Shown here: positions 1 through 52,243 of the stretch, in pieces
How the letters are laid out: the number at the start of each line of letters is the position of its first letter
Position numbering within the stretch: the stretch's first letter is position 1
Origin: Pegea sp. RAD2-039
Taxonomy: Eukaryota > Chordata > Thaliacea > Salpida > Salpidae
Direction of reading: 5' to 3'
Assembly (NCBI GenBank): GCA_034620365.1
Contig: JAQGEQ010000299.1
Location: 1,116,001 to 1,180,000 of the forward strand
Length of the DNA stretch: 64,000 nt
Translations under genes and position numbers: made by a program
The notes under the pieces: generated by a model
The model's database searches: none
Seen by the model: the letters and a program-made list of their open reading frames with translations, nothing else
Told to the model about the DNA's origin: nothing

Positions 1-1161
1 CAACGTACGATAACAGTTATTATGTAATATTATAAAACAAAATTGTAAACCCTTTAAACTAATTTATACAGTCTTATTATTTTATTGTTCAAACTTTTAT
101 TCTAAATAAAAGCAATTTTAAATACTCTTTTTCAAATCGGTTCATACATTTTTATGTAATTCTTATGGAAGAACTGCTAGGAAAAGCTGCCGAATTTTAA
201 TGCAGTTTACCTAAAAATTATTTCAAATATTCTCTGCAATTTGTTTTTAAACTTAAATTTCCATATTATACTATAAATAATAATTACAAAAGTATAACTC
301 AATTCTATATTTCTCTATTAAAACCGTTTAGTTTATTACTTGTGTACCTGATTGATTGTTAAGCGATCTAAAAAATTGTTTTTTAAGAATTGTAAACGAA
401 AGTTTTATTATAATCTGAATATGATGCATGAGTTAGTCAACCGAAACCGATGTGGTGTATAAATTCTGAAGAGCCAAACTTTAACTGCAAGAATTTTACA
501 AAACCTATAGTTCTATAAATAGTTTGTTAAACTTTACAAATGCGTCAAAATTATTTTTCTTATACATTTAGAAATTTATCAATGAATCATAAAGTTTAAC
601 TTTCGTTTTTTTGATATTAATTTAACTTGTCGATTTGTGATAAAAGAAATTCTTATTTACTTTATAACTATGCTTTTATCTGCATTCTATTAAGAGATTC
701 CTTTTAACACACATATACTGAATTAAATACTCTTTTAGCACCAAAGTATAAAACTAAATTGACTTACTTAAAATCTATATTTTCAATCTCTAACGTTTCA
801 TAATAAATGTCTTTGGCTTCAGAAAAGTTTAGACTTCCGCCAAGAATTTGTTTCCATGTAAACAAACCTATTCCAATAATGTCCAAAATCTCCACATGAG
901 TAATTGCCTTTTTTTCTATAAAATAGATTAGTGGATAAATATTTAAAGTTTTTGGCTCATTAACAATTTAGATTAGTATAAGGGTTTAAGAATAGCTGAT
1001 CCATACGAAAGTATAAACAAAAATATCATACTTGGAAATCTGTTCTTAATTTTAAACGAATTTTCTTTCTCCAAACGTGAAACAGTGCAATAAAATTGTG
1101 AAAGTAGAAATATAAGCCCAGTGTAACTTATCAAAAACAGAAGCTTGAAGTTTCTATCCAT
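1..1161 (-). CDS. RXYLT1: Ribitol xylosyltransferase 1 paralog A, 5' exons only (runs off left edge)
   Basis: First two coding exons of a type II Golgi membrane protein of the RXYLT1/TMEM5 family, which adds xylose to the ribitol-phosphate part of the alpha-dystroglycan O-mannosyl glycan. Exon 1 is 1032-1161 (130 nt): start at 1161, short N-terminus, one hydrophobic anchor at about residues 6-25. Exon 2 is 768-915 (148 nt) and carries the family signature IGIGLFTWKQILGG, which matches the vertebrate IGLYLWEHIFEG region. Both exons match the complete paralog at 13057-14748 in length and phase but differ clearly in sequence, so this is an older paralog. Positions 1-767 are intron 2; exons 3-5 must lie left of the window. 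A splice acceptor (cccaacag) sits 7 nt before the ATG. The exons visible here are intact, so the gene may be functional. Confidence 0.75.
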
Positions 1162-1354
1162 AGTAAAACTGTTGGGTTAACTAAAATTGGAACAAATAAT
1201 AATCAAAAGAAATGTTTTTATAAACTATTCAATAATCCTAACCTACTAGTTGTATCAAATTAACAAAACTTAACAACGTTTTCTTGAGAATGTACTGTAA
1301 GTAAAAAAGTAGGTTTATGAATTCTTTCATTTTAATGCTGACTAAAACTTAACC

Positions 1355-1441
1355 TTTCTCAGAAGAAAAAGAGCATTCTCAAAAATAACAAATATTACTG
1401 AATAGGAGCTAAAATAAACACTCACTGCAGACTACTATGAT
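1355..1441 (+). repeat. 87-bp direct repeat, left copy
   Basis: Matches 2136-2222 with about five mismatches over 87 bp. The two copies precisely flank the 694-bp inverted CHP segment. It is far too long for an ordinary transposon target-site duplication. Confidence 0.85.
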
Positions 1442-1721
1442 ATATTGAACCTGGTTCGAAGTCTTGTAAGCTGGTCTTTGGAAACTACAAATTTGACATT
1501 GAAATTGAGTGAATAAATTGAGTTGACTAGATATTTACTTTGTAGATTAAATAAGTATAACAAAGAATAAATTATATTTATTAATGCAAAATAACTACAA
1601 CTTTACATTTTATAGTGTAATAAAAATAAAACAGAAATAACTATAGCAAAATGAATGACTTACATCCAGTATCACGAAAACTCCTAAAATCTAATTTCTC
1701 TTTACTTCCAAAAATACCCAT
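1442..1721 (-). pseudogene. Truncated inverted copy of CHP exon 1 and part of exon 2
   Basis: Within the inverted arm, a 58-nt exon 1 equivalent (1664-1721) keeps the ATG and the splice donor and has one synonymous change. An exon 2 equivalent (1442-1484) is cut after 43 nt. No later CHP exons follow, so it cannot encode a calcium-binding protein. It was created by the inverted duplication, not by retroposition, because intron 1 and upstream DNA are included. Confidence 0.85.
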
Positions 1722-2135
1722 CATAAAAAATTAACTATTGTTTAGTAATAAATATTAATTAGGTTTGACATGCATCGATATAAACAAAATGGATTTTATT
1801 TGAATCTAATTTTGTTTTTAAATAAAAATTTTAATCAGAATCAATGGAGACATTATAAGCATAATTTTTGTAAAAAAAAATTTCTTTTATAAATTATTAT
1901 TAAAATTTTCGTTTAAATTTAACTATTTTAACTTATTATTACTTCGACTTTGAAATCAAGTAAATGCTGCTTTAATTATCTACAATATTTACAATTTTCT
2001 TAAAAATTACCCACAAGCATTTTTAACCATTACCAGGAGCATATCACAAAATGCAAAACTGTAGAGAACAAATAATTCACTTTACTTAATTATTCACATT
2101 AAGTCTCTAAACTATAAAATAAATGTTATTTTTTA
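1442..2135 (-). repeat. Inverted-repeat arm, reverse complement of about 3259-3952
   Basis: The segment is the reverse complement of the CHP copy 1 promoter, exon 1, intron 1 and part of exon 2, about 690 bp, with only scattered differences. The two arms are separated by about 1.1 kb (2136-3258). The arm stops abruptly inside CHP exon 2 at 1442, directly against the left 87-bp direct repeat. Confidence 0.9.
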
Positions 2136-2222
2136 TTTCTCAGAAGAAAGAGAGCATCCTCAAAAATAACAAATATTATTGAATAGGAACTAAGATAAAC
2201 ACTCACTGCAGACTACTATGAT
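2136..2222 (+). repeat. 87-bp direct repeat, right copy
   Basis: Second copy of the repeat at 1355-1441, lying at the inner edge of the inverted CHP arm. Confidence 0.85.
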
Positions 2223-3258
2223 CAGACTAAAGGCAGACTACAATGGTGATATCTATATTTCTAAAAACTTTTTTCTACCTATGGTTACTTTCTTAGGCTT
2301 CTTGATGGTTTGTAAAATTTCTAAAACCGAAAAGAAAAGTTATTTGCATAACATTGCTAAATAACTAGCATGTAAGTTACATATTAACTGTTAGGTGGCT
2401 AAATAACGGTTTCTTTTCATTTCTTTGAATTTTACTCTTTATATTTTAAAAATTGGTGAAACAAGCAATAGGAAACAATATTTCAGGAAAGCTAATTTAG
2501 AACTTAATGAAAACATTAGAATCGTACACATTAACTTCACATAAATTGCATTTTTGCTTTCAGTTGAAAATTAAACTTTTTAAAGGCTTTTCTGGATGTT
2601 TACAAAATAAAAAGTTTGAAATTTTCGAACGGACTCAATTCGTCGATTTTTTTCTATTGTACTTGTATAAAATTTTTTCTTCTAAACGTACATTTATTAA
2701 CTGTTTTCAACTTTTGTATATCTGACAAGCTTTTTTTCTAATTTACGCTTGTTTTTATCACTACACAAAACAAAAAACTTAGAAAGCTAACAGATACAAA
2801 CTAAAATTATTAATTTGCTTTTTACACTTTGCAGATGTTGATGAAAGCAATTAGACATTTTCAACATTAATTTTTTGCTAGCTAAACTTTGTAATCTGAA
2901 GTAGTAGTTTAAAAAAAATTGTTAGCCATAGTTCCGCTGTGATTTTAGTGGATTATAGCGTGCACTCAACTATCGCCATTTCTATATATCTGCTTATATA
3001 AGAAAGGATTAAAGCCTACGTGTTACTAAGGTAACCATCTAAACTGCTTGTCCATTGAAATCGTTGAACTTGGTAAATCATCATTAAAATTTGGTAAACT
3101 GGTACTTTTTTGATGAACAAAACCCAATAATAATCAATAACTGATATATCAACAATTACGATATAAATTTATTCACATAGATAAAACTATCATTACGCAG
3201 CATCTAAATAAATTTAGGATTATGTACAAATGTGTTTACAAAAGATACACATTTATTA
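2223..3258. other. Spacer between inverted arms, no gene seen
   Basis: AT-rich spacer between the inverted CHP fragment and the CHP gene. A 72-codon open frame at 2507-2725 has AT-driven composition and no recognisable motif. I see no exons here. Confidence 0.5.
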
Positions 3259-3672
3259 GAAAAAATAACATTTATTTTATAGTTTAGAGACTTAATGTGA
3301 ATAATTAAGTAAAGTGAATTATTTGTTCTCTACATTTTTGCATTTTGTGATATGCTCCTGGTAATGGTTAAAAATGCTAGTGGGTTATTTTTAAGAAAAT
3401 TGTAAATATTGTAGATAATTAAAGCAGCATTTACTTGATTTCAAAGTCGAAGTAATAATCAGTTAAAATAGTTAAATTTAAACGAAAATTTTAATAATAA
3501 TTTATAAAAAAATATTTTTTTTACAAAAATTATGCTTATAATGTCTCCATTGATTCTGATTAAAATTTTTATTTAAAAACAAAATTAGATTCAAATAAAA
3601 TCCATTTTGTTTATATCGATGTATGTCAAACCAAATTCATATTTATTACTAAACAATAGTTAATTTTTTATG

Positions 3673-6121
3673 ATGGGTATTTTTGGAAGCAAAGAGAAAT
3701 TAGATTTTAGGAGTTTTCGTGATACTGGATGTAAGTCATTCATTTTGCTATAGTTATTTCTGTTTTATTTTTATTACACTATAAATTGTAAAGTTGTAGT
3801 TATTTTGCATTAATAAATATAATTTATTCTTTGTTATACTTATTTAATCTACAAAGTAAATATCTAGTCAACTCAATTTATTCACTCAATTTCAATGTCA
3901 AATTTGTAGTTTCCAAAGACCAGCTTACAAGACTTCGAACCAGGTTCAATATGCTTAGCCACAACAATAATTTCTTAACGTCAGTTTTATTATTTCCTAA
4001 CCATTATAACTACTTTTTTCTGTGTCCAGAAGACTTATTAAGTATTTCTGAAACAAAATAATAATTGTACTTTTATAGTAAACGATATGAAAATCATAAA
4101 CAAACTTGTTGTGATTATTTGTATTTTTTATTAAAGAATATTTTTTAAAGATTTACTTTCAAATGACTATTTTTTATTTTTTTAGAACTTAAACTCATTT
4201 AGCTTGACTTCCTTATTTTTTTAAGTTATACAAAAGTTGTTTGATGTTTGATTTTTATAAAATTAGATTTGTTTAAAGTTTTTCTTTCACCATACTGTTT
4301 TTACTTCAGAAGAGAAGATTTTTTTTCCATACCAGGTTTGGCAATTAATCCGCTGGCTGATAAGATTGTAGAACAGTTTTTTCTGAACAAGTAATTTCTT
4401 TTTCCTTTGTCTTGAAAACTTTAAGATATTCATGAAATCTTGAATGTGAGGTTTCTCTCAGATATAGTAGCTTTGGTATTTTGTTGACTAAATTTATTTC
4501 GCAGAGAAGAAATTAATTTTGACGGTTTTGTAAAAGTGCTTTCAATTTTCAAGCAAAGTCATTCCTGTAATTCCAATGCTTTTGATGAGAACAAACTATT
4601 GAGACTGAAATGTATGCTGATTTGTAACATTTTTTAATATCTAAATTTTTAAACAATTATTTTGTTTAATGTTAGCTTATTCATAGTTATTACTATTATA
4701 TATATATATTTCCAACTTTTAAATAATATAATTTGCTTTGGCTAAAGCTTCTTCAGTTCATTATTAGCAGATGTTAATGTTCAGATTTAAAAAAATACTT
4801 TTACATCTGATAATCTGAATTGAAGTTATACTATATGTAAATTTAATTGATATTGAATAGATTAGTTTTTAAATTTATATCATACGTTAAGCTATTGTTT
4901 GATGGAAATATTGTTGAAAAGCAGCAATATTTTTATTATCTTCACTTATGCTAATCAGGTAAAAATAGTTTTTTATCCAATTCATTTCTCTCAATTTACA
5001 ATTGTTAGTGACAGCTAAAAGCTATAAAAGTATTTGATACTATTGCTTCTGTAAATGGCTCACTTGAAGCTGGTTTCAGAATAAATAAGATACTAATTAT
5101 GGTTTTAAAGTGTTTATTTTGAAAATATTACTAAGAAGCTTGTGACTTTAAGTTAAATTATTAACTTGATAGAAAAGTAGAAGTAAAAATTAATACTATT
5201 TGAATTCAAGTTACTTAATAAAATTAAAAATGTTACAAGACTTTCTGAAAAGTTATTAGAAAAAGCTTGAAAAGGCAGATGTATTAAAAGGTTACTCAAA
5301 TAGATTACTCTTGAATGATATCATTTTTTCATACAGTTTTATTTTCAATGATAGACAAAGATCAAAATGATATGATCAGCAAATGTGAGCTGGAAGAGGT
5401 TATTGGTTTGTTTTCCAAATAATGTTGAGCAATTTTAAACATTTTTTAGAATTTATCGAAATCTGCAAAAATGTTTGTTCTTAAAATTTTGAATAATCAA
5501 CTAATCAAGATACAATTTGAAGGTTTTTGAAAAACTTAACATAAAACTTTTGATTTATTAGATTTTGAGATTGATGCTTGGCTCAAATATTACTAATGAA
5601 CAAATTTCATTAATAGCTTATAGAACTATGTTGGAATCTGATAATACGCAAGATCAATATATGAGCTTTTCCAAGTATTCTGAGGTGAAATATACTTAAT
5701 TGAAATTAAGAATTTTGCAAAAGATTTGCTCCAACAAATTTGGTTTCACTTGATAGCTTTATTTATAAGAGAAGGCTTAATCATTTGTATCAAATTACTA
5801 ATGGTCTTATCACATTTTTCTTCAATTTATAGTAATGATTGTAACAATATATAAGCTAATATTATTTGATTTCATGATTTAAACTAATATGTACTTACTA
5901 TTTTCTGATTTCTATAGCTGTTCTAAAGACTAAAATCGAATAAGTTTTTTGAATTTACTCTTTTATAAGCTACATCTTATTTCTTAAGTTTATATTCAAT
6001 TTGTTCATTTAACTAAAAATCTTATAAAGAGGTATTTTTAGTTTCTAATCATTTTTTTTTATCTTAGATGATGCTAAGAAGTGACCTATTCGCTAAAATG
6101 TGTACTACTTTTAAAAATTGA
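3673..6121 (+). CDS. Calcineurin B homologous protein (CHP1-like EF-hand), copy 1
   Basis: Seven exons: 3673-3730, 3910-3979, 4310-4390, 4505-4611, 5337-5398, 5562-5684 and 6068-6121, giving 165 residues with consistent phases. Family members are N-myristoylated EF-hand proteins that bind and regulate Na+/H+ exchangers. The second of two adjacent ATGs (3673) gives MGIFGSKEK, a good N-myristoylation site (Gly2, Ser6), so I prefer it. Residues around exons 1-3 read TGFSKDQLTRL and EDFFSIPGLAINPL, close to vertebrate CHP1 (TGFSHSQITRL, EDFQRIPELAINPL). EF-hand 3 (residues 93-104, DKDQNDMISKCE) is canonical. The EF-4 loop (134-145) ends in Lys where Glu is expected, so it may not bind calcium. 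The C-terminus is about 30 residues shorter than vertebrate CHP1 (195). The TGA overlaps an AATAAA. Confidence 0.88.
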
Positions 6122-6304
6122 ATAAATTTTGCTTAAAATGTTTTTGAATGTTTCAATATAAAACGTCTGTAAAAGTACTTTCTTGTATTTTATACATCCA
6201 TTTTAGCGTTTAAGTATTAACATGTTTATTTTTTAAAAGTGATCACTATTACTTCAAAACTATTTTAACAAAAACTATAAAAAAAATTAAGGAAAAAAGT
6301 CATT

Positions 6305-6712
6305 TTTCTGGTCCGCTTAGTCCGTGAATGACCATGCATATTATATGTACCAGGGCAAAAGTTATGGATATCCAGTTTTTGGCCATTTAGCAGAATTCCA
6401 CTGTCCACGCCAGCCAGGTTATGCAGCGAAACAGACAGACTTGATGTAGCTACACCCGGCTGGCGTCACATGAGCTTTCACAAAGACACTGAGTACAGTA
6501 ACTAGCTGCCTAAGAGGCTCCAACTCCGGCTGTAAATTCGGAGTTTTGCATCTCCTAAAAGTATTGTCATCTTACCAAACTCACAGGACCCTTCTACCTG
6601 TTTTTCATATGACTTTCGCTTGTCACTAATGTGTCCACCTGGGATCGAGCCCGGTACCACCCTAGTAGGCAGCTTGTGGTAACCGCTTCGCCAACCAGAT
6701 GGACAGTTGTAA
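6305..6712 (-). mobile_element. tRNA-derived SINE, full-length copy
   Basis: About 400 bp of GC-richer sequence in an AT-rich neighbourhood. On the minus strand it begins near 6712 with a tRNA-like head containing a B-box-like segment (gggctcgatccc at 6643-6654) and an anticodon-arm-like stretch. A body of about 300 bp follows, ending in A/T-rich sequence near 6305. The same element is at 12036-12443 (copied with the tandem duplication) and, split in two, at 49600-49790 and 52063-52243. The 93-codon frame at 6502-6783 is incidental to the SINE. Confidence 0.75.
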
Positions 6713-7325
6713 CCAAAAAAATTTAAAGAAAAATCATAACGACGACACTCTGCGATTAAATAAATGACGAAGTCAATAAGCATAATTTTATACTAAATAA
6801 ATAAATTTTGTTGAATTTTATTTTTGACTTGAAGTTAGTTTTATTCATTTTGTTTAACTTTTGTTATTGTTAAAATTATAAAATTATTAAAATCATTTTT
6901 GATTTGAAGTCTAATTTAACAAAAAAAAATCATCAAGTAACTGGAATAGTTTAAAGAAATTTAAAAAAAAAACAGAAAAATAATAAAAACTTGATTTAAA
7001 AAAAACAGAAGTAACGAATAGAATATATTATTTAACAAATGTTCAGAAATTGTGACTAAACGAAAATTACTTTTAAGTTTACTTTGTGGAGAGTAAACCT
7101 GTAGCTAAGGACACAACATTTTTGAAAAATGAATAAATTCAATTTTTCTCCATTAAAATTTTACAAATTTAAGTTTACAAGTTTCATAAAAAAGCAACAA
7201 AAGTTTTTTTTACTAATTTTTAATCTGTAAGAAGATTAAAAAAAAACAAATAAAATGCATTTTACAAACAAAATTGTGTTATATTAAACATTTCTCACAA
7301 ATAATTTAAGTGTGTTCATCTAAAT

Positions 7326-8535
7326 CTATTTGAAAAGTGTTTTGATATCGTTGATAAATTTTCTACGAAGAGATAGTTTGAAATTGGAATACCATTCAGC
7401 AACCTTTAATCTTTCATTAATCTTCTCTTCAACAGGCAAGTTGTAGAACTTCTCAAAAATCTCTTTACTATCTTCTTTCCAACTTGTAACAAATTTTAAA
7501 GGTGCCTTATAAAGTTTCAACAACATATATGGAGATGTAATATTTTCATATCCAGGTATAAAAGAAGGTTTACAAGAATCCCTCACATTGTCATCTATTA
7601 CTGGAATTGATCCTAATTCTAAAGCTTCAAATGTCCGATAACATTCTGCAGCAGTGCCAAGAGGTGATAAAGTCAGATCACTATTTTCTAAAGCTGCAAG
7701 ATACGGATTAGTACCAAGAGTTTCTTTTTGGTTTTTCCACCTAGAAAAGTAAAAATTAAACTGAAATATTATTAAACTGAGATATTTACTCAAATTTTTT
7801 CAAAACCACGAAAATATTAGTCAGACTTTAAAAATCTGTCATTTAAAAGCCTTACTTAGAAGAAAATGAAAACAAGTTTTCTTCTTCTTTAATCAGGTCA
7901 GGATAAGACTGAATTGCTCTTAAAAAAGGATAACGAGACTCCCGGATTGCTCCGACAAAGGTAGCAGTATAATCTCTTGGTGCAGTCAAATCGACTTCTA
8001 TATCATTTGTTAGTTGTAAGTTTCGTCTGAGTTTGTGGTTGTCAGAACTGTAAGAAATTATTAAAATAATCGAAAGTAGGTTTGTTGACTCTAAGAAAAA
8101 TACATTTTTAACAGTCTAGTTAATTTCCGCTAACTTTATACAATAAGTCTATTACTAAACTTGGATTTTATATTAAAGTAATTATCAACCGACTGATTAA
8201 CTAAATGTATGGTAAAATTATTATCAACTTACTATTGAATTCCTAGTGGCCATAGAAACACACGTTTGTTGTCAACAAGATTTGATTCATGAGTGACATA
8301 CACAAATCTCAACTTGTCAAACTCCAATAAAGTATTCAAGTATTTATCATTACAGGCAAGATCAGAAAAGATAATCAAAGCAATGTTCTTGATTTTGTTA
8401 CTTTTTAGTAGGCGTGCGAGGATTTCCACAGCAGATCCACTTCCATCTCTTCCCCAGAAAGCAAGAATAACATTTTCTGATTGAAAAGAAATCTGTTGAT
8501 CAGTTGGTCTTGGATGACAGCAGTCAACACGAAAT
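7326..8535 (-). pseudogene. RXYLT1: RXYLT1 hybrid copy B lacking its first two exons
   Basis: Exons 3-5 are present and open: 8233-8535, 7856-8047 and 7326-7740 (stop). The C-terminal exon has the family core SDLTLSPLGTAAECYRTFEA. Exon 3 is a chimera: its C-terminal part, and everything downstream of it, is near-identical to copy C, whereas its N-terminal part (about 8350-8535) differs from C and is followed by the intron of paralog A (8566-8998 = 1-433). Exons 1-2, with start codon and membrane anchor, would lie within the deleted 434-3269 equivalent, and none are found before the CHP gene. With no start, signal-anchor or promoter this copy is probably dead, although its frames are still open, so the event looks recent. 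Confidence 0.8.
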
Positions 8536-9402
8536 CTGAAAATTTATAGTTTTGAAAGTTAGACTCAACGTACGATAACAGTTATTATGTAATATTATAA
8601 AACAAAATTGTAAACCCTTTAAACTAATTTATACAGTCTTATTATTTTATTGTTCAAACTTTTATTCTAAATAAAAGCAATTTTAAATACTCTTTTTCAA
8701 ATCGGTTCATACATTTTTATGTAATTCTTATGGAAGAACTGCTAGGAAAAGCTGCCGAATTTTAATGCAGTTTACGTAAAAATTATTTCAAATATTCTCT
8801 GCAATTTGTTTTTAAACTTAAATTTCCATATTATACTATAAATAATAATTACAAAAGTATAACTCAATTCTATATTTTTCTATTAAAACCGTTTAGTTTA
8901 TTACTTGTGTACCTGATTGATTGTTAAGCGATCTAAAAATTTGGTTTATAAGAATTGTAAACGAAAGTTTTATAATAATCTGAATATGATGCATGAGTTT
9001 TATTTATTTTATAGTTTAGAGACTTAATGTGAATATTTAAGTAAAGTGAATTATTTGTTCTCTACATTTTTGCATTTTGTGATATGCTCCTGGTAATGGT
9101 TAAAAATGCTAGTGGGTTATTTTAAGAAAATTGTAAATATTGTAGATAATTAAAGCAGCATTTACTTGATTTCAAAGTCGAAGTAACAATCAGTTAAAAT
9201 AGTTAAATTTAAACGAAAATTTTAATAATAATTTATAAAAAATTTTTTTTTTACAAAAATTATGCTTATAATGTCTCCATTGATTCTGATTAAAATTTTT
9301 ATTTAAAAACAAAATTAGATTCAAATAAAATCCATTTTGTTTATATCGATGTATGTCAAACCAAATTCATATTTATTACTAAACAATAGTTAATTTTCTA
9401 TG

Positions 9403-11852
9403 ATGGGTATTTTTGGAAGCAAAGAGAAATTAGATTTTAGGAGTTTTCGTGATACTGGATGTAAGTCATTCATTTTGCTATAGTTATTTCTGTTTTATTT
9501 TTATTACACTATAAATTGTAAAGTTGTAGTTATTTTGCATTAATAAATATAATTTATTCTTTGTTATACTTATTTAATCTACAAAGTAAATATCTAGTCA
9601 ACTCAATTTATTCACTCAATTTCAATGTCAAATTTGTAGTTTCCAAAGACCAGCTTACAAGACTTCGAACCAGGTTCAATATGCTTAGCCACAACAATAA
9701 TTTCTTAACGTCAGTTTTATTATTTCCTAACCATTATAACTACTTTTTTCTGTGTCCAGAAGACTTATTAAGTATTTCTGAAACAAAATAATAATTGTAC
9801 TTTTATAGTAAACGATATGAAAATCATAAACAAACTTGTTGTGATTATTTGTATTTTTTATTAAAGAATATTTTTTAAAGATTTACTTTCAAATGACTAT
9901 TTTTTATTTTTTTAGAACTTAAACTCATTTAGCGTGACTTCCTTATTTTTTTAAGTTATACAAAAGTTGTTTGATGTTTGATTTTTATAAAATTAGATTT
10001 GTTTAAAGTTTTTCTTTCACCATACTGTTTTTACTTCAGAAGAGAAGATTTTTTTTCCATACCAGGTTTGGCAATTAATCCGCTGGCTGATAAGATTGTA
10101 GAACAGTTTTTTCTGAACAAGTAATTTCTTTTTCCTTTCTCTTGAAAACTTTAAGATATTCATGAAATCTTGAATGTGAGGTTTCTCTCAGATATAGTAG
10201 CTTTGGTATTTTGTTGACTAAATTTATTTCGCAGAGAAGAAATTAATTTTGACGGTTTTGTAAAAGTGCTTTCAATTTTCAAGCAAAGTCATTCCTGTAA
10301 TTCCAATGCTTTTGATGAGAACAAACTATTGAGACTGAAATGTATGCTGATTTGTAACATTTTTTAATATCTAAATTTTTAAGCAATTATTTTGTTTAAT
10401 GTTAGCTTATTCATTGTTATTACTATTATATATATATATTTCCAACTTTTAAATAATATAATTTGCTTTGGCTAAAGCTTCTTCAGTTCATTATTAGCAG
10501 ATGTTAATGTTCAGATTTAAAAAAATACTTTTACATCTGATAATCTGAATTGAAGTTATACTATATGTAAATTTAATTGATATTGAATAGATTAGTTTTT
10601 AAATTTATATCATACGTTAAGCTATTGTTTGATGGAAATATTGTTGAAAAGCAGCAATATTTTTATTATCTTCACTTATGCTAATCAGGTAAAAATAGTT
10701 TTTTATCCAATTCATTTCTCTCAATTTACAATTGTTAGTGACAGCTAAAAGCTATAAAAGTATTTGATACTATTGCTTCTGTAAATGGCTCACTTGAAGC
10801 TGGTTTCAGAATAAATAAGATACTAATTATGGTTTTAAAGTGTTTATTTTGAAAATATTACTAAGAAGCTTGTGACTTTAAGTTAAATTATTAACTTGAT
10901 AGAAAAGTAGAAGTAAAAATTAATACTATTTGAATTCAAGTTACTTAATAAAATTAAAAATGTTACAAGACTTTCTGAAAAGTTATTAGAAAAAGCTTGA
11001 AAAAGGCAGATGTATTAAAAGGTTACTCAAATAGATTACTCTTGAATGATATCATTTTTTCATACAGTTTTATTTTCAATGATAGACAAAGATCAAAATG
11101 ATATGATCAGCAAATGTGAGCTGGAAGAGGTTATTGGTTTGTTTTCCAAATAATGTTGAGCAATTTTAAACATTTTTTAGAATTTATCGAAATCTGCAAA
11201 AATGTTTGTTCTTAAAATTTTGAATAATCAACTAATCAAGATACAATTTGAAGGTTTTTGAAAAACTTAACATAAAACTTTTGATTTATTAGATTTTGAG
11301 ATTGATGCTTGGCTCAAATATTACTAATGAACAAATTTCATTAATAGCTTATAGAACTATGTTGGAATCTGATAATACGCAAGATCAATATATGAGCTTT
11401 TCCAAGTATTCTGAGGTGAAATATACTTAATTGAAATTAAGAATTTTGCAAAAGATTTGCTCCAACAAATTTGGTTTCACTTGATAGCTTTATTTATAAG
11501 AGAAGGCTTAATCATTTGTATCAAATTACTAATGGTCTTATCACATTTTTCTTCAATTTATAGTAATGATTGTAACAATATATAAGCTAATATTATTTGA
11601 TTTCATGATTTAAACTAATATGTACTTACTATTTTCTGATTTCTATAGCTGTTCTAAAGACTAAAATCGAATAAGTTTTTTGAATTTACTCTTTTATAAG
11701 CTACATCTTATTTCTTAAGTTTATATTCAATTTGTTCATTTAACTAAAAATCTTATAAAGAGGTATTTTTAGTTTCTAATCATTTTTTTTTATCTTAGAT
11801 GATGCTAAGAAGTGACCTATTCGCTAAAATGTGTACTACTTTTAAAAATTGA
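9403..11852 (+). CDS. Calcineurin B homologous protein (CHP1-like), copy 2
   Basis: Exons 9403-9460, 9640-9709, 10040-10120, 10235-10341, 11068-11129, 11293-11415 and 11799-11852. By eye I found no difference from copy 1 in the coding exons; introns show a few substitutions and one-base indels. It therefore encodes the same 165-residue myristoylated EF-hand protein. Its upstream region differs: because of the deletion, RXYLT1-A intron sequence (8566-8999) is joined only about 400 bp before the start codon, so the upstream sequence beyond about 3270-equivalent is replaced. Expression may therefore differ from copy 1. Confidence 0.87.
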
Positions 11853-12035
11853 ATAAATTTTGCTTAAAATGTTTTTGAATGTTTCAATATAAAACGTCTG
11901 TAAAAGTACTTTCTTGTATTTTATACATCCATTTTAGCGTTTAAGTATTAACATGTTTATTTTTTAAAAGTGATCACTATTACTTCAAAACTATTTTAAC
12001 AAAAACTATAAAAAAAATTAAGGAAAAAAGTCATT

Positions 12036-12443
12036 TTTCTGGTCCGCTTAGTCCGTGAATGACCATGCATATTATATGTACCAGGGCAAAAGTTATGGAT
12101 ATCCAGTTTTTGGCCATTTAGCAGAATTCCACTGTCCACGCCAGCCAGGTTATGCAGCGAAACAGACAGACTTGATGTAGCTACACCCGGCTGGCGTCAC
12201 ATGAGCTTTCACAAAGACACTGAGTACAGTAACTAGCTGCCTAAGAGGCTCCAACTCCGGCTGTAAATTCGGAGTTTTGCATCTCCTAAAAGTATTGTCA
12301 TCTTACCAAACTCACAGGACCCTTCTACCTGTTTTTCATATGACTTTCGCTTGTCACTAATGTGTCCACCTGGGATCGAGCCCGGTACCACCCTAGTAGG
12401 CAGCTTGTGGTAACCGCTTCGCCAACCAGATGGACAGTTGTAA
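12036..12443 (-). mobile_element. tRNA-derived SINE, duplicated copy
   Basis: Same element as at 6305-6712, same position relative to CHP and RXYLT1, essentially identical. It arrived by the segmental duplication, not by a separate insertion. Confidence 0.75.
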
Positions 12444-13056
12444 CCAAAAAAATTTAAAGAAAAATCATAACGACGACACTCTGCGATTAAATAAATGACG
12501 AAGTCAATAAGCATAATTTTATACTAAATAAATAAATTTTGTTGAATTTTATTTTTGACTTGAAGTTAGTTTTATTCATTTTGTTTAACTTTTGTTATTG
12601 TTAAAATTATAAAATTATTAAAATCATTTTTGATTTGAAGTCTAATTTAACAAAAAAAAATCATCAAGTAACTGGAATAGTTTAAAGAAATTTAAAAAAA
12701 AAACAGAAAAATAATAAAAACTTGATTTAAAAAAAACAGAAGTAACGAATAGAATATATTATTTAACAAATGTTCAGAAATTGTGACTAAACGAAAATTA
12801 CTTTTAAGTTTACTTTGTGGAGAGTAAACCTGTAGCTAAGGACACAACATTTTTGAAAAATGAATAAATTCAATTTTTCTCCATTAAAATTTTACAAATT
12901 TAAGTTTACAAGTTTCATAAAAAAGCAACAAAAGTTTTTTTTACTAATTTTTAATCTGTAAGAAGATTAAAAAAAAACAAATAAAATGCATTTTACAAAC
13001 AAAATTGTGTTATATTAAACATTTCTCACAAATAATTTAAGTGTGTTCATCTAAAT

Positions 13057-14748
13057 CTATTTGAAAAGTGTTTTGATATCGTTGATAAATTTTCTACGAA
13101 GAGATAGTTTGAAATTGGAATACCATTCAGCAACCTTTAATCTTTCATTAATCTTCTCTTCAACAGGCAAGTTGTAGAACTTCTCAAAAATCTCTTTACT
13201 ATCTTCTTTCCAACTTGTAACAAATTTTAAAGGTGCCTTATAAAGTTTCAACAACATATATGGAGATGTAATATTTTCATATCCAGGTATAAAAGAAGGT
13301 TTACAAGAATCCCTCACATTGTCATCTATTACTGGAATTGATCCTAATTCTAAAGCTTCAAATGTCCGATAACATTCTGCAGCAGTGCCAAGAGGTGATA
13401 AAGTCAGATCACTATTTTCTAAAGCTGCAAGATACGGATTAGTACCAAGAGTTTCTTTTTGGTTTTTCCACCTAGAAAAGTAAAAATTAAACTGAAATAT
13501 TATTAAACTGAGATATTTACTCAAATTTTTTCAAAACCACGAAAATATTAGTCAGACTTTAAAAATCTGTCATTTAAAAGCCTTACTTAGAAGAAAATGA
13601 AAACAAGTTTTCTTCTTCTTTAATCAGGTCAGGATAAGACTGAATTGCTCTTAAAAAAGGATAACGAGACTCCCGGATTGCTCCGACAAAGGTAGCAGTA
13701 TAATCTCTTGGTGCAGTCAAATCGACTTCTATATCATTTGTTAGTTGTAAGTTTCGTCTGAGTTTGTGGTTGTCAGAACTGTAAGAAATTATTAAAATAA
13801 TCGAAAGTAGGTTTGTTGACTCTAAGAAAAATACATTTTTAACAGTCTAGTTAATTTCCGCTAACTTTATACAATAAGTCTATTACTAAACTTGGATTTT
13901 ATATTAAAGTAATTATCAACCGACTGATTAACTAAATGTATGGTAAAATTATTATCAACTTACTATTGAATTCCTAGTGGCCATAAAAACACACGTTTGT
14001 TGTCAACAAGATTTGATTCATGAGTGACATACACAAATCTCAACTTGTCAAACTCCAATAAAGGATTCAAGTATTTATCATTACAATCAAGATCAGAATA
14101 TACTATCAAACCCATATTCTTAATTTCATCTTTTTTCAGTAAACGATTAATAACATCGACTGCGAATTCTTTCCCATCTCTTCCCCAGAAAGCAAAAACA
14201 ACATTTTCTGATTGAAAAGAAATCTGTTTATCTGTTGGTCTTGGATGACAGCAGTCGACACGAAGTCTGAAAATTTATGCTTTAATTTATTTTTAGTAAC
14301 TAAATTGACTTACTTAAAATCTATATTTTCAATTTCTAACATTTCAGAATAAATCTCTTTGGACTCGTAAAAGTTTAGATTTCCGCCAAGAATTTGTTTC
14401 CATGTAAATAAACCTATTCCAATAATGTCCAAAAAATCCACTTCCATGTTACTCTTTTTTTCTGTGTTATTTTCTACATTAAGTAATTTTCAGTCAGCTT
14501 ATTGAAAGTTGTATAAAATGTTTTTAAACATAACTTTTAATAAGAATATTATAAATGTTTAACAAAACCATTACTTTAACAGAAACTAGATTATAGTTCG
14601 TAAATAAAAATCGTATACTTGGAAAAATTGTGGGTTTATTAAAGCAATTTAACCTTTCCAACTTTGCAGAAATGTAAAAAAGATGTATAATTAAAAAGGT
14701 AAGCCATATAAAACTTATTAAAAGAAATATCTTTGATTTTCTTCCCAT
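13057..14748 (-). CDS. RXYLT1: Ribitol xylosyltransferase 1, complete copy C
   Basis: Five exons: 14619-14748, 14314-14461, 13964-14266, 13587-13778 and 13057-13471; 395 residues (vertebrate about 443). Type II membrane topology: short basic N-terminus and a hydrophobic anchor at about residues 7-27, then a lumenal glycosyltransferase domain. Matches to the family include IGIGLFTWKQILGG (exon 2), RVFLWPLGIQY (exon 3, vertebrate FQWPLGVATY), ATFVGAIRES (exon 4) and SDLTLSPLGTAAECYRTFEA plus GSIPVIDD (exon 5, exostosin-like). The enzyme acts in the Golgi on alpha-dystroglycan. An acceptor (tttttacag) lies 19 nt before the ATG. The C-terminal part, up to mid exon 3, is near-identical to copy B; the rest is private to this paralog. 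This is the only complete RXYLT1 in the window. Confidence 0.88.
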
Positions 14749-15688
14749 AATTTATTAGTTAGAAGTTCTGTAAAAACAGTAAGTCTTGAATAAAATTGAT
14801 GTAAATAACTTCAAGAGTCATAAACACCAAGTGCTCTAAACTACTGAAAATATATTAGCTTCTCTGTATATCTGGTTCTTAACTGAGGTTATAAACGGTT
14901 CTAATGAGCTCTTTGAAAGTTTGTAATCTCTAACTAAAGAACTGATTAGTTATCGTTAGCAGACTTTTCGATTTTTTTATAACTTTTCAACACACATTTT
15001 ATAAGCGACCTGCCTAAAATAAATTCAACTCATAATTTTTAATGTTAGAAAAACCAGTTTACTAAAATGAAACTTCAGTAGTCAAGATAAAAAATATCAT
15101 TTTTGAAAATGTAGAACGAAAATACTTTTCGATTGTGAGCAGTAAATGTTCTATCATACATCCGTTACAGTTCAGTAATTCTTTAAAGGTATTTTAGTGA
15201 TTGAATGTCTTATATAGTCACTTAAATATATAATAACATAGAGATGTTTTATACACTTATTTACTTTTAGTAATTCAATTCTCCAAGTAATAATATTTTG
15301 AATATTATATATGTATATAAGCTCCTGATAATTTAACAACCTCTTACAATTATTTAAGCTCAACATAAGCGTAAAACAGATAACAGCTTATGTGATTGTA
15401 CCGTTTAAGAATTTTTCTCAATCCTAAATAGCAAAGATAATCTGTCATCTTTAAATTTTGAGAATATTGTTTGGAAACAGTCAAACTATTTATACGTAAT
15501 TTATTCTTAGTGATCACTTAACTATTTAAATTTTTATTAAATATTTAGAATATTGGAAAGAATTAGACATAACTAAATAAAACAATATAAATTTTTCAAT
15601 TTTGTTTATTAATCATTTTACAACTTACACTCATTACTTTCCATAGCACTTCTAAATTAGTTGCACAATTTTTTAATAAGATATTTGT
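14749..15688. other. Intergenic, no gene seen
   Basis: AT-rich DNA between RXYLT1-C and the CUB/EGF gene. An AATAAA on the minus strand at 15605-15610, about 80 bp past the stop at 15689, is a likely polyadenylation signal for the CUB/EGF gene. A 64-codon frame at 15172-15366 is AT-driven. Confidence 0.5.
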
Positions 15689-18278
15689 TTAAAGGGCAAG
15701 ACATTTAGGAAGCCGAGGGTTAAGTGATCCATCCTTAAGGCAACTTAATTTAGATGAACCAAACAACCAAAAACCATCTTGACATTTGATTTTTATCTTT
15801 TGTCCGTAACCAATATAAGAATATCCATCACTTGATTTGCTTGGTGCCTGTATAAAGAAACCATACAAGGGAGGTTCCGGTAATCTGCATCTAACTCCTG
15901 TTGAAATTATTTTGTGGTTTAACTTGAGGTATTATTAAAGCTTGAGTCTTAGTCAGGAAGTAACTATTTTCGTGGAAAATTGTTATGTAATCACATCATA
16001 TAATTGTTGAAATCATTTTTTTTTAGAAGTTATGTTTAAAAAAAAGTTATTTTTAAGATTAAGAAATCACCAAGAGAACTGAATTGAAACTTAAATCCAG
16101 ATCTTTCATTCGTTCCATCGGAAACAAATTTAATTCTCATCCAATCCGTAGCAGATTTAAAATTTTTTACAGCTCTTTGCCCACATAGTTTGTTTAAGCC
16201 TGATTGGTCTTCTACCTAGGTTAGCAGAAAAGAAAAAAAGAAAATTCATTATTACAACTCATCAAAGCATCTTTAAATACTTGTGTTCTTTCTAAACGTT
16301 ATCTTTTTAACTAACTAATTATTTTTTATTGTTAATTATTATATTAGTTATTTCCTGATATTTGTATCTAATAATTTATTGAACAATTTTTAGAAAATTA
16401 ATTTCAAAGCTTTAATAAATTATCAATGAAGGTTAAACCTCGACATAATCAAAGTCACAGTTGGTTGCTTCTTCCACGTCAAAGTCTGCCACTGAGGACA
16501 GATGAATATTCTCTCCCGGATTAGCCTAAAATCATCTAGCATTAAACTTTTTTTAAATAATGTTATCTGAAATAAAACTCTAAAAATGAAAATAAAAATC
16601 TTTTTTGCTACAAATCTTTAATTATGCAATCATATTTAGAAAAAATTATAATCTTATCATTAACAAATAAGACTATTTTATCTATTAGATTATTAGATCT
16701 TTTAAACTTACATATAAGCTCCAGGTGCAATTTGCAAATGGGGCGTATGCATTTCTAAACATTGGAGGAACAACATAACCAGAAGTGGAACCTTTTGGAA
16801 TTGACGGGCAACTTTTAGGGTTTACTAAGAGTTAAGAATAAATCGTATTCAATTTATGCTATGATAATTTACTAGTATTCTTACAGATGGTCTAATACTT
16901 GCATTTATTTTTGATCATTACTTACTTTCGCTTATTTAAATTTATTAATTGATTGATGTCTCCATTTATTTTATAATTAAAACGTAAGAACTGCTATGTA
17001 GTTTAGTAAGATGTTTTGTAATTTCTTAAACTATAATAAAAGTATTAAAATAAATTTAATATTCTATTCTTAATAATTAAACAGATAAAAAAAAACAATT
17101 TGATAAACATTACTAAATAGTAAATGATTAAATTACAATTATTTGAAATGAAACCATAAAAGCGTAACGATATACACTTTTTAATTGTAAATAACTTATC
17201 TGGAAACACTGGATTTTGATTAACTTACATTTACAAGTCATTCCATCTTCTGATAGCTGAAATCCTGGATAACATTCACAACTGAATGATCCGGCATAAT
17301 TGATGCAGACCTGCGAGCATCTTTTAATTGAGTTTGATTGTTCGTCCGAACCCAACATATTTTCTTCGCATTCATCAATATCTACATAAAAACACTTGAA
17401 ATATCATAATTGAAAAATTAAAGTGTTTTAATTTTTGATATCTTCAAAGTATCTTTATCTTACGACTTTAAAATCTCTTTAGCTCACAAAAGACTTTCTA
17501 AACAATACCTTCTGCATAATAATGAGCTTTGAATCCCATTAATTGGCCTTCCTCAGGTACTGGTTGGTTGTTAAAGTCAGTTACCATTCGAACTATCATA
17601 GTATTTCCAGTTGAAATGAATTTCTGAGTTCTTAGCACAGGTGAATATGGCCTAGTACATAACGTTTATAGTTTTTGTAGAAATTGTATTTCATTTAGAT
17701 TACATACGGTAAATAAATAGATAGAAGTTAAGTAAATGATAAATTACCTTGATAAGTAACTGTTACCGCACATCTTTGCCATTGATCTATTAGTTTTTCC
17801 ATCTATCAACTAAAACATTTTCTGTCTCACTCACCTGAACTATTCTTATAAATTCTAATAATTAATAATTTCTATAAACGACCATTTATGTAATTAATTT
17901 AATTCTATCAAAAATAAAATATATTTCTAACAAACTAATCTTAGATTTTCTAAATTCATACATCAAGAATATGAGATACTTCTCAACAAAAAGTTATAAT
18001 TAGAATCAAAGAATTTATACTCAGACACCCACTTCTACAAATTCTTTCCATATATCTCGATTTCCACCCGTTTCTTCGATACCAAAATCAATAAAGTAAA
18101 GTACAATTTTATAACCTTTTTTTACAATCAACTCTTGTTCCTCCTTTAAGTTATCCGGATAAAAGCCGTCTGAATAGTTTTGAGATGCAATAAATCCATG
18201 TGTAAGTGTTAATTTCGATTGGAACGCCTTAGAGCAGGTAAAAAAAAGGATTAAGACAAAAACAAAAAGTTTGCTCAT
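15689..18278 (-). CDS. Secreted CUB-EGF-CUB-CCP protein (MASP/C1r-type without protease)
   Basis: Eight exons: 18029-18278, 17748-17802, 17509-17651, 17229-17381, 16712-16824, 16439-16525, 16071-16215 and 15689-15897; 384 residues, all phases consistent. Order: signal peptide (residues 1 to about 18); CUB1 (GFIASQNYSDGFYPDN; CGNSYLS; GFKAHYYAE); calcium-binding EGF starting DIDEC with the hydroxylation pattern CINYAGSFSC; CUB2 (about 206-317); one sushi/CCP domain (GYGQKIKIKCQDGFW) ending in a stop soon after its last Cys. C1r, C1s and MASPs continue with CCP2 and a trypsin-like domain; none is found downstream. The layout and length resemble the vertebrate MASP1 splice form MAp44, a non-catalytic inhibitor. 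Here it is genomically fixed or a separate gene. An acceptor (tttttcag) is 19 nt before the ATG. Confidence 0.87.
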
Positions 18279-19665
18279 TCTTTGTTAGTTTATTGATCTG
18301 AAAAACAAAAACAGCTAAAGAAAAATAAATTTAACAATTAGCTTTTATGGAAGTTTTATCTGATATCTGAACTAAAATTTTCTTCACCAAAAACAATTAA
18401 TGATCAACTTTTGGTTTACATAAGTCTGTTATCAAATGTTTGTTTTGATTGCAAGTTAAAGATTTTTGAATTAATCCTCAAACTAAATCAAACTAATTAA
18501 TCGTCAACTTAGTTTTATGTAGCTCTCTATCTTTTCCTTTTCTTCATGCACTTGTTTTTTAAAATAAGTAATTAAATAACAATTGATGTAATAATTACTC
18601 TCAATAACTTATGCCAGTCTATTTCTGCTCTAAAATGACATCTAGCAAACAACATTGAATATATGTTTATTTGAGGTTCAAGGTTCGAACTAAAACAATT
18701 GTTTTGACCCAATTGATGATGACAAAAAAGCATATTTTCTTTCGAGGCAAATTATTTCCCTAAGACTACAAATTGTATAAAACATTATAAATGATTTTGT
18801 CAAACAAGATACTTTATTAATGTCAGATATGGTTAAATGATAATTCAACTTACGTCAATTAAAATTTCATTCCATTTTTCGGTATTTTCAAAACATTTGC
18901 AAAGACAAAATAACAATTTATTAAATTATAACTCATCATTAAAAAAATCGAACATCAAAATAAGACAATTATTAATGACTACAACTAAAGCTCTTGCTTA
19001 AAAAGCTTTAGAAGACAATAACATTTTCATCTTTATTTTTAGAATAGGAATCACAATTTGTGCAAGTTAAGAAAAATTGCATTACGAGCTTTTTTTTCGA
19101 TTGTTGAAGAAACCCACAAGGTGTTAAGCACACAAAAATAGAAATAAAACTTACTTGTACAGGCTGCCTGTAATTTCTGATTTTGGTAATCACCTTTTGA
19201 TCTTTTTTATTTGTTTCTTAAAGCTAAAAATTTGTCAATACAGATTTAATTCGACGCCATTTACATTGCAACCATGCAAAGAGCAATGCTGAAAGTTTTA
19301 CCACCGAGTTGTATTCTTAGCAAGAACTAGCTCAGTTGCCACAGACTTAGTAACTCAAAAATGTTGGTTTTATTTATAGATCTAATTTCTAGAGTGCATT
19401 TGAAGTAACTGACTTTTTGTAGATTAAAAAAGTTACTAATTTTTCCGGGCTCAGCAAAACTGTAATCATATTTGGCGATTTTATAAGGGAATCTATTAAG
19501 TTTTATCCGATTTAACTTCTCAAAAAGACAAAATATTTATATTAGTGGCAATATGTAATTTCGACTAAAACACTCATTCAATATACTTTGGTTAATAGTT
19601 ACAAGATTTTTAATATCGTGATTAGAATAAAAAAAAAGCTTAAAAAATAGTTCATTTGAATGTGG
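18279..19665. other. Intergenic, no supported gene
   Basis: AT-rich. A frame at 19008-19193 (minus) contains a donor-like gtaagt and some coding-like triplets, but I could not chain it into a gene. Confidence 0.4.
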
Positions 19666-51901: not shown

Positions 51902-52062
51902 ATTTTTCTCTTTTACAATACTATGATTCTGTGCAATTCTTCATTGTCATATGCTTTTTCGTTTACACGTCAAATAGATCTAATTTGTGAGAATGTGTGT
52001 TAGCGAGAGGTGCTCTCTTTAGGCACCCTCCTTCACATTTATTGTAATAAATAAATAAATAA

Positions 52063-52243
52063 ACTCTGACTTTAAATTCGGAGTTTTGCCTCTCCTAAAA
52101 ACGCTGTGATTAACTATATTACGTAAGCCCTTCCACCCGGGTTTTATTGACTTTTCTTTGTCGCAAATGTGTCCACCTGGGCTCGAACCCGAAACCTCCC
52201 GACTGGTAGGCGGGTGTGGTAGCCTTGACACCACACAGATGAA
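52063..52243 (-). mobile_element. Right half of interrupted SINE with tRNA-like head
   Basis: Matches 6533-6712 of the intact SINE (taaattcggagttttgc, ctcctaaaa, tgtccacctggg). On the minus strand it starts near 52243 with a tRNA-like head carrying an exact B box (gggttcgagccc) and an anticodon-arm-like stem around ctaccag. Pol III promoter elements are visible. Confidence 0.75.

Follow-up and report, generated by a model that had tools for sequence, protein, structure and literature searches.

Probable origin of a hybrid RXYLT1 exon by unequal crossing-over in a tandem RXYLT1-CHP array of Pegea sp. RAD2-039

How may a gene copy arise that follows one neighbour in one half of an exon and its other neighbour in the remaining half? 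This question is raised by a stretch of 64,000 nucleotides of the Pegea sp. RAD2-039 genome (contig JAQGEQ010000299.1), referred to below as the window, where copies of RXYLT1 alternate with copies of a gene for a calcineurin B homologous protein (CHP). The order from left to right is D (a broken RXYLT1 relic), A, CHP1, B, CHP2 and C, with the RXYLT1 copies on the minus strand and the CHP copies on the plus strand. Coordinates below 1 lie to the left of the window, and position p corresponds to C249:1116000+p. The genome comprises 105.7 Mb in 387 contigs, and the G+C content of the window, calculated from base counts, is 27.5%. A protein search of the genome placed RXYLT1 matches at this locus only (at least 11 matches, D not being reported among them), and all probes searched in the genome matched at the array locus only, the match counts being lower bounds. 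The first candidate profile, PF13439 (glycosyltransferase family), gave one match on another contig and was uninformative on the array. Two 20-base guide targets of the rotifer Brachionus manjavacas (PMC10395877) had no match at up to 2 mismatches, and a COX1 search, whose control was positive in 8 of 14 genomes, found no COX1. A putative minus-strand gene at 15690-18280 resembles, by eye, a CUB/EGF-domain protein.

By domain content, A and C are predicted to be RXYLT1 (ribitol xylosyltransferase 1) genes acting in xylosyl transfer to ribitol phosphate. Each encodes 395 aa in five exons of equal length in the two genes (130, 148, 303, 192 and 415 bp). The exon models of A are located at 1032-1161, 768-915, -332..-30, -822..-631 and -1352..-938 for exons 1 to 5, the last three being left of the window, and those of C at 14619-14748, 14314-14461, 13964-14266, 13587-13778 and 13057-13471. 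Both proteins carry the domains PF24785 RXYLT1_C (130.9 bits in A and 130.8 bits in C; cut-off 27) and PF24786 RXYLT1_N (72.9 and 61.5 bits; cut-off 25). The dS between A and C is about 0.57 over 153 codons (exon 1 to mid-exon 3), about 0.04 over 39 codons of the 3' part of exon 3 and 0 over 189 codons of exons 4-5. The first of these values suggests that A and C are old paralogs and, both being intact, they suit the role of parents that the initial annotation had given them. Such uneven dS also points to gene conversion and to a homologous patch at which the two genes might pair.

The copy between them, B, retains open exons 3 (8233-8535), 4 (7856-8047) and 5 with the stop codon (7326-7740), which together encode 302 aa. 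Its parent was scored at informative substitution sites of a three-way A/B/C alignment. In 7176-8221, 83 sites join B with C (BC|A) and none joins it with A (AB|C), whereas in 8222-8547 the respective counts are 0 and 41 (Fisher P about 9e-34); when intron 3, which aligns poorly, is left out, the counts are 15:0 versus 0:41 (P about 6e-14). There is a single clean switch, with no wrong-side AB|C or BC|A site on either flank, and the mosaic nature proposed for exon 3 of B is thus borne out. The switch from C-like to A-like sequence is bracketed by 133 bp that comprise part of B exon 3 and the final bases of intron 3 (8222-8354, minus strand), where A, B and C are identical except at 8255 (AB|C) and 8333 (AC|B). 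The latter fits neither side and is read as a private change of B; if 8255 is counted as informative, the bracket shrinks to 8222-8254. The switch had been placed near 8350, which is correct in that it falls inside exon 3, although 8350 is merely the outer edge of the bracket. Exon 3 of B consists of a 5' part of the A type and a shared 3' end, followed by an intron 3 of the C type, and the join is in register, as shown by an equal exon length of 303 bp in all three copies.

The A-like side of B extends through intron 2 to 8999, with 7 differences in 778 positions (-343..434 against 8222-8999, 99.1%). Exon 3 of A does match the N-terminal half of B, as the proposed hybrid origin demanded, and the match noted previously between 8566-8998 and 1-433 was recovered (8566-8999 against 1-434, 98.6%) and continues left into exon 3 of A. 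The C-like side extends leftward into the CHP unit, and the evidence for it comes from the 3' flank, from intron 3 and from the opening codons of exon 4. Exon 4 is of the C type at its 5' end and then identical in A, B and C, and exon 5 is identical in all three. The downstream exons had been assigned to C as a whole; this stands for the 3' flank, intron 3 and the start of exon 4, but 7258-8009 is identical in A too. The near-identity of B and C stops, as reported, at about 14085 within exon 3 of C (boundary 14085/14086). Only one novel junction, that in B, is visible, and not both junctions as had been stated; A and C show the parents.

The hybrid exon is best explained by an ectopic unequal crossover of the anti-Lepore type, with exon 3 of A recombining with that of C; this would have built the A-CHP-B-CHP-C arrangement (probability about 0.74). 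In the one assembly analysed, A and C are intact on either side of B, the switch is single and in register, and the segment between the parents is duplicated. Unrelated break points would rarely meet at matching places of two exons, so that a homology-guided exchange is the simple reading. The ancestral array would have been D-A-CHP-C, with A and C already old paralogs, and pairing would have taken place between C exon 3 on one chromatid or homolog and A exon 3 on the other. A homologous crossover in the 133-bp near-identical patch may then have given B its 3' side from C and its 5' side from A. This patch, situated between the diverged intron 3 and the diverged 5' part of exon 3, was probably the pairing site and is perhaps itself an older conversion. 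Against this account, the exons are otherwise diverged, with 40 of 193 sites different in the 5' part, and for ectopic pairing of such exons the patch is short; a nearby tract of 752 identical bp would have served better, unless it is of later origin.

Replication-based template switching, in register through exon 3, could produce the same hybrid exon in place of a meiotic crossover while needing little homology, and a deletion in B, described below, demonstrates that repair without clear homology acted at this locus; no base was gained or lost at the switch, as a homologous crossover predicts, and even though this discriminates weakly, template switching seems very unlikely. It is highly improbable that the duplication had other end points and that the A-like half of B was pasted later by conversion from A: conversion seems active in the array, to judge from the 752-bp tract, but the A-like side of B is no patch, since it continues through intron 2 and, past the deletion, directly into the CHP unit. 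Moreover, the searches found no further copy of C exons 1-2 and the right flank beside B, and this history requires more events.

The duplicated units, both in plus orientation, are 3270-8354, with CHP1 and the 3' part of B, and 9002-14085, with CHP2 and the 3' part of C. An 8.6 kb tandem duplication had been described, and this length (about 8.6 kb) applies on the left, whereas the right unit is about 5.73 kb because of the deletion in B. Relative to A, B is missing 435-3269 (2,835 bp) and with it exons 1 and 2. At the deletion junction of the right unit (8999-9002), A-type sequence 1-434 is joined to sequence that starts at 3270 in the left unit; the join carries about two additional T, and microhomology is not evident there. 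The product of the crossover, as the earlier proposal held, did gain a second CHP and a hybrid exon, but the hybrid RXYLT1 is incomplete, and its fit to the RXYLT1_N profile is limited to positions 52-140. By eye, the retained upstream sequence has no start codon reading in frame into exon 3, and exons 3-4 contain no Met. Both absences rule against a functional B, although there may be an unseen upstream exon. With exons 1-2 deleted and no start codon into exon 3, the sequence of B suggests that it is probably a young pseudogene. The crossover would thus have been followed by a 2.8-kb deletion, sealed without clear homology, that took exons 1 and 2 of B and left the remainder facing CHP2.

Relic D, spanning -4766..-1806 to the left of the window, is a further RXYLT1 remnant of the array. 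Its 3' end (-4766..-4301) is 86% identical to the 3' flank of A, and a second piece (-2232..-2052, 74%) resembles intron 2 of A together with the beginning of its exon 3; between the two pieces lies reverse-transcriptase sequence (RVT_1, 38.8 bits; cut-off 29.6). The presence of D indicates that the array probably expanded at least once before.

The 752-bp tract is located at -1420..-669 in A, 7258-8009 in B and 12989-13740 in C. All 752 of its 752 columns are identical, and it covers part of exon 4, intron 4 and exon 5, nearly coinciding with RXYLT1_C (residues 202-394). Being identical in all three copies, it cannot separate the parents of B. Its flanks diverge, with 6 substitutions and 3 gap columns in 83 on the left and 9 substitutions in 49 columns on the right. 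On the alignment, the tract is read as a gene conversion tract, since protein constraint would not hold an intron and synonymous sites identical; conversion between the copies would have evened out the exon 4-5 block across all three. When D was used to look for the direction of conversion, the flank gave 9 DA|C and 0 AC|D sites, the tract 11 AC|D and 0 DA|C, and the stretch between them a mixture (10 AC|D, 4 DA|C, 2 DC|A), a pattern that both directions of conversion fit. That the crossover took place in a short patch instead of in the 752-bp tract suggests that the tract is younger. Another reading, considered quite unlikely, is that ectopic conversion recurs in the RXYLT1_C block alone; A and C would then be kept as a pair of enzymes that share one C-terminal half while their N-terminal halves diverge freely (dS 0 against 0.57), and the duplication would be a by-product of this exchange.

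The CHP1 exons that match calcineurin B homologous protein are located at 4311-6120, with a putative first exon at 3674, and their CHP2 counterpart at about 10041-11851. Among solved structures, each of the five top matches (best E 5.2e-24) is calcium-binding protein p22 or calcineurin B homologous protein 1 or 2. Both copies (3674-6120 and 9404-11851) are seemingly without an exon for the first EF-hand, none being seen by eye in the reading frames. A search of the genome with CHP DNA (4300-6200) found only the two array copies, while more distant protein matches were obtained on contigs C4 (40% identity), C1 (33%) and C278. The CHP-like match on C4 (417581-417997) has a long open frame. Each duplicated unit also contains a short repeat (6522-6653 and 12253-12384) that is 76% alike to 52062-52191 and that, by eye, resembles a tRNA-derived SINE.

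The 5' region of CHP, including the putative exon 1, has an inverted copy on the minus strand at 1442-2134, which is 98.4% identical to 3260-3952 and separated from it by a spacer of 1.1 kb. Direct repeats of 87 bp (1355-1441 and 2136-2222, 94%) bound the left arm, a layout that insertion at a break with widely staggered ends could give. A dispersed transposon was considered as the origin of the arms and rejected, as 1355-2222 matched this locus only (3 places). The inner edge of the right arm, 3260, is within 10 bp of 3270, the end point of the deletion in the other unit. The inverted copying is placed first in the order of events, before the crossover, the B deletion and homogenisation, because the arms are 98.4% alike, whereas the right arms of the two units differ by 4 substitutions over about 683 bp.

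Ten substitutions and three one-base indels separate the left and right units over about 5.08 kb of this assembly, and they are unevenly placed. No substitution occurs in 4686-8254 (3,569 bp), the right unit having one extra A in this stretch, near 11000; a run of this length was not reached in 20,000 random placements of 10 sites, and divergence outside it is about 0.6-0.9%. With no divergence over 3.57 kb and this level elsewhere, a single clock-like event is insufficient, and conversion or recent haplotype identity would have left this part of the CHP units substitution-free. The differences are densest beside the deletion in B, where 6 of 7 A-B differences fall within 223 bp; on its other side, 3 of the 8 substitutions of 3270-4685 fall within 250 bp. 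None of 20,000 simulations reached the clustering seen over the whole unit, and the diverged zone alone gave P 0.008 in a post hoc test, which was chosen after seeing the data and used a 16-entry list in which 8333 appeared twice (once as -232) while 8255 and the three indels were missing. Polarised by the left inverted arm, the right unit is derived at 3 substitutions and one indel and the left at 1 substitution, with 1 site ambiguous. Repair at the deletion may have been mutagenic, or conversion may have removed the differences elsewhere and halted at the large heterology. If haplotypes that differed were joined by the crossover, old heterozygosity could likewise account for the patchy divergence.

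The same pattern bears on whether the array is an assembly artefact, in which two haplotypes with one CHP unit each, one of them lacking the region of A exons 1-2, were joined in tandem through a patch shared by A and C. A substitution-free 3,569 bp with few differences elsewhere is what two haplotypes might show, and an assembler could be misled by what A and C have in common, an identical stretch of 752 bp and a near-identical one of 133 bp. Nevertheless, the window and the 20 kb to its left contain no N, the contig is 1.79 Mb long, and the genome search found no second-haplotype contig for the probes 4300-6200, 14100-16100 and 400-2135. The right unit, moreover, has its own deletion with a distinct join, and the shared patch through which a false join would have to run is only 133 bp long. 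An artefact is therefore regarded as unlikely. The unequal crossover between A and C, as initially proposed, is still the most economical history, being in agreement with the in-register exon, the parents and the flanks, but the proposal had missed the loss of B exons 1-2, the 752-bp tract, the 3.57-kb substitution-free stretch, relic D and the inverted copy of the 5' region of CHP.

The locus offers a compact, readable record of how a tandem array changes: the hybrid exon marks crossover, the intron-crossing tract marks conversion and the deletion marks decay. One published source, whose main text does not contain the words rotifer or Lophotrochozoa, places RXYLT1 in the dystroglycan pathway across animals (PMC8478517). 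For dystroglycan glycosylation, the array contributes an animal genome in which two RXYLT1 genes are intact and two further copies broken. The general view of gene duplication is unchanged, and the array clearly illustrates a process that is already well known, without adding a new kind of event.

In anti-Lepore haemoglobin hybrids, the 5' part comes from the downstream gene and the 3' part from the upstream gene. The Pegea array resembles them, as they are generally described, in that both parents flank the hybrid, the 5' and 3' parentage is the same and the segment between the parents is duplicated; it differs in that the duplicated segment holds an unrelated gene (CHP), the hybrid is without its first two exons and the array is partly homogenised. 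The identical intron-spanning tract amid strongly differing paralog flanks is similar to concerted evolution by partial gene conversion in tandem genes, with the difference that the tract nearly matches one protein domain, RXYLT1_C. Another parallel is the CYP11B1/CYP11B2 chimera of glucocorticoid-remediable aldosteronism, likewise a chimeric gene, reported to be formed by unequal crossing-over between two similar genes; that chimera causes disease, whereas B is truncated and probably silent (PMC8750845).
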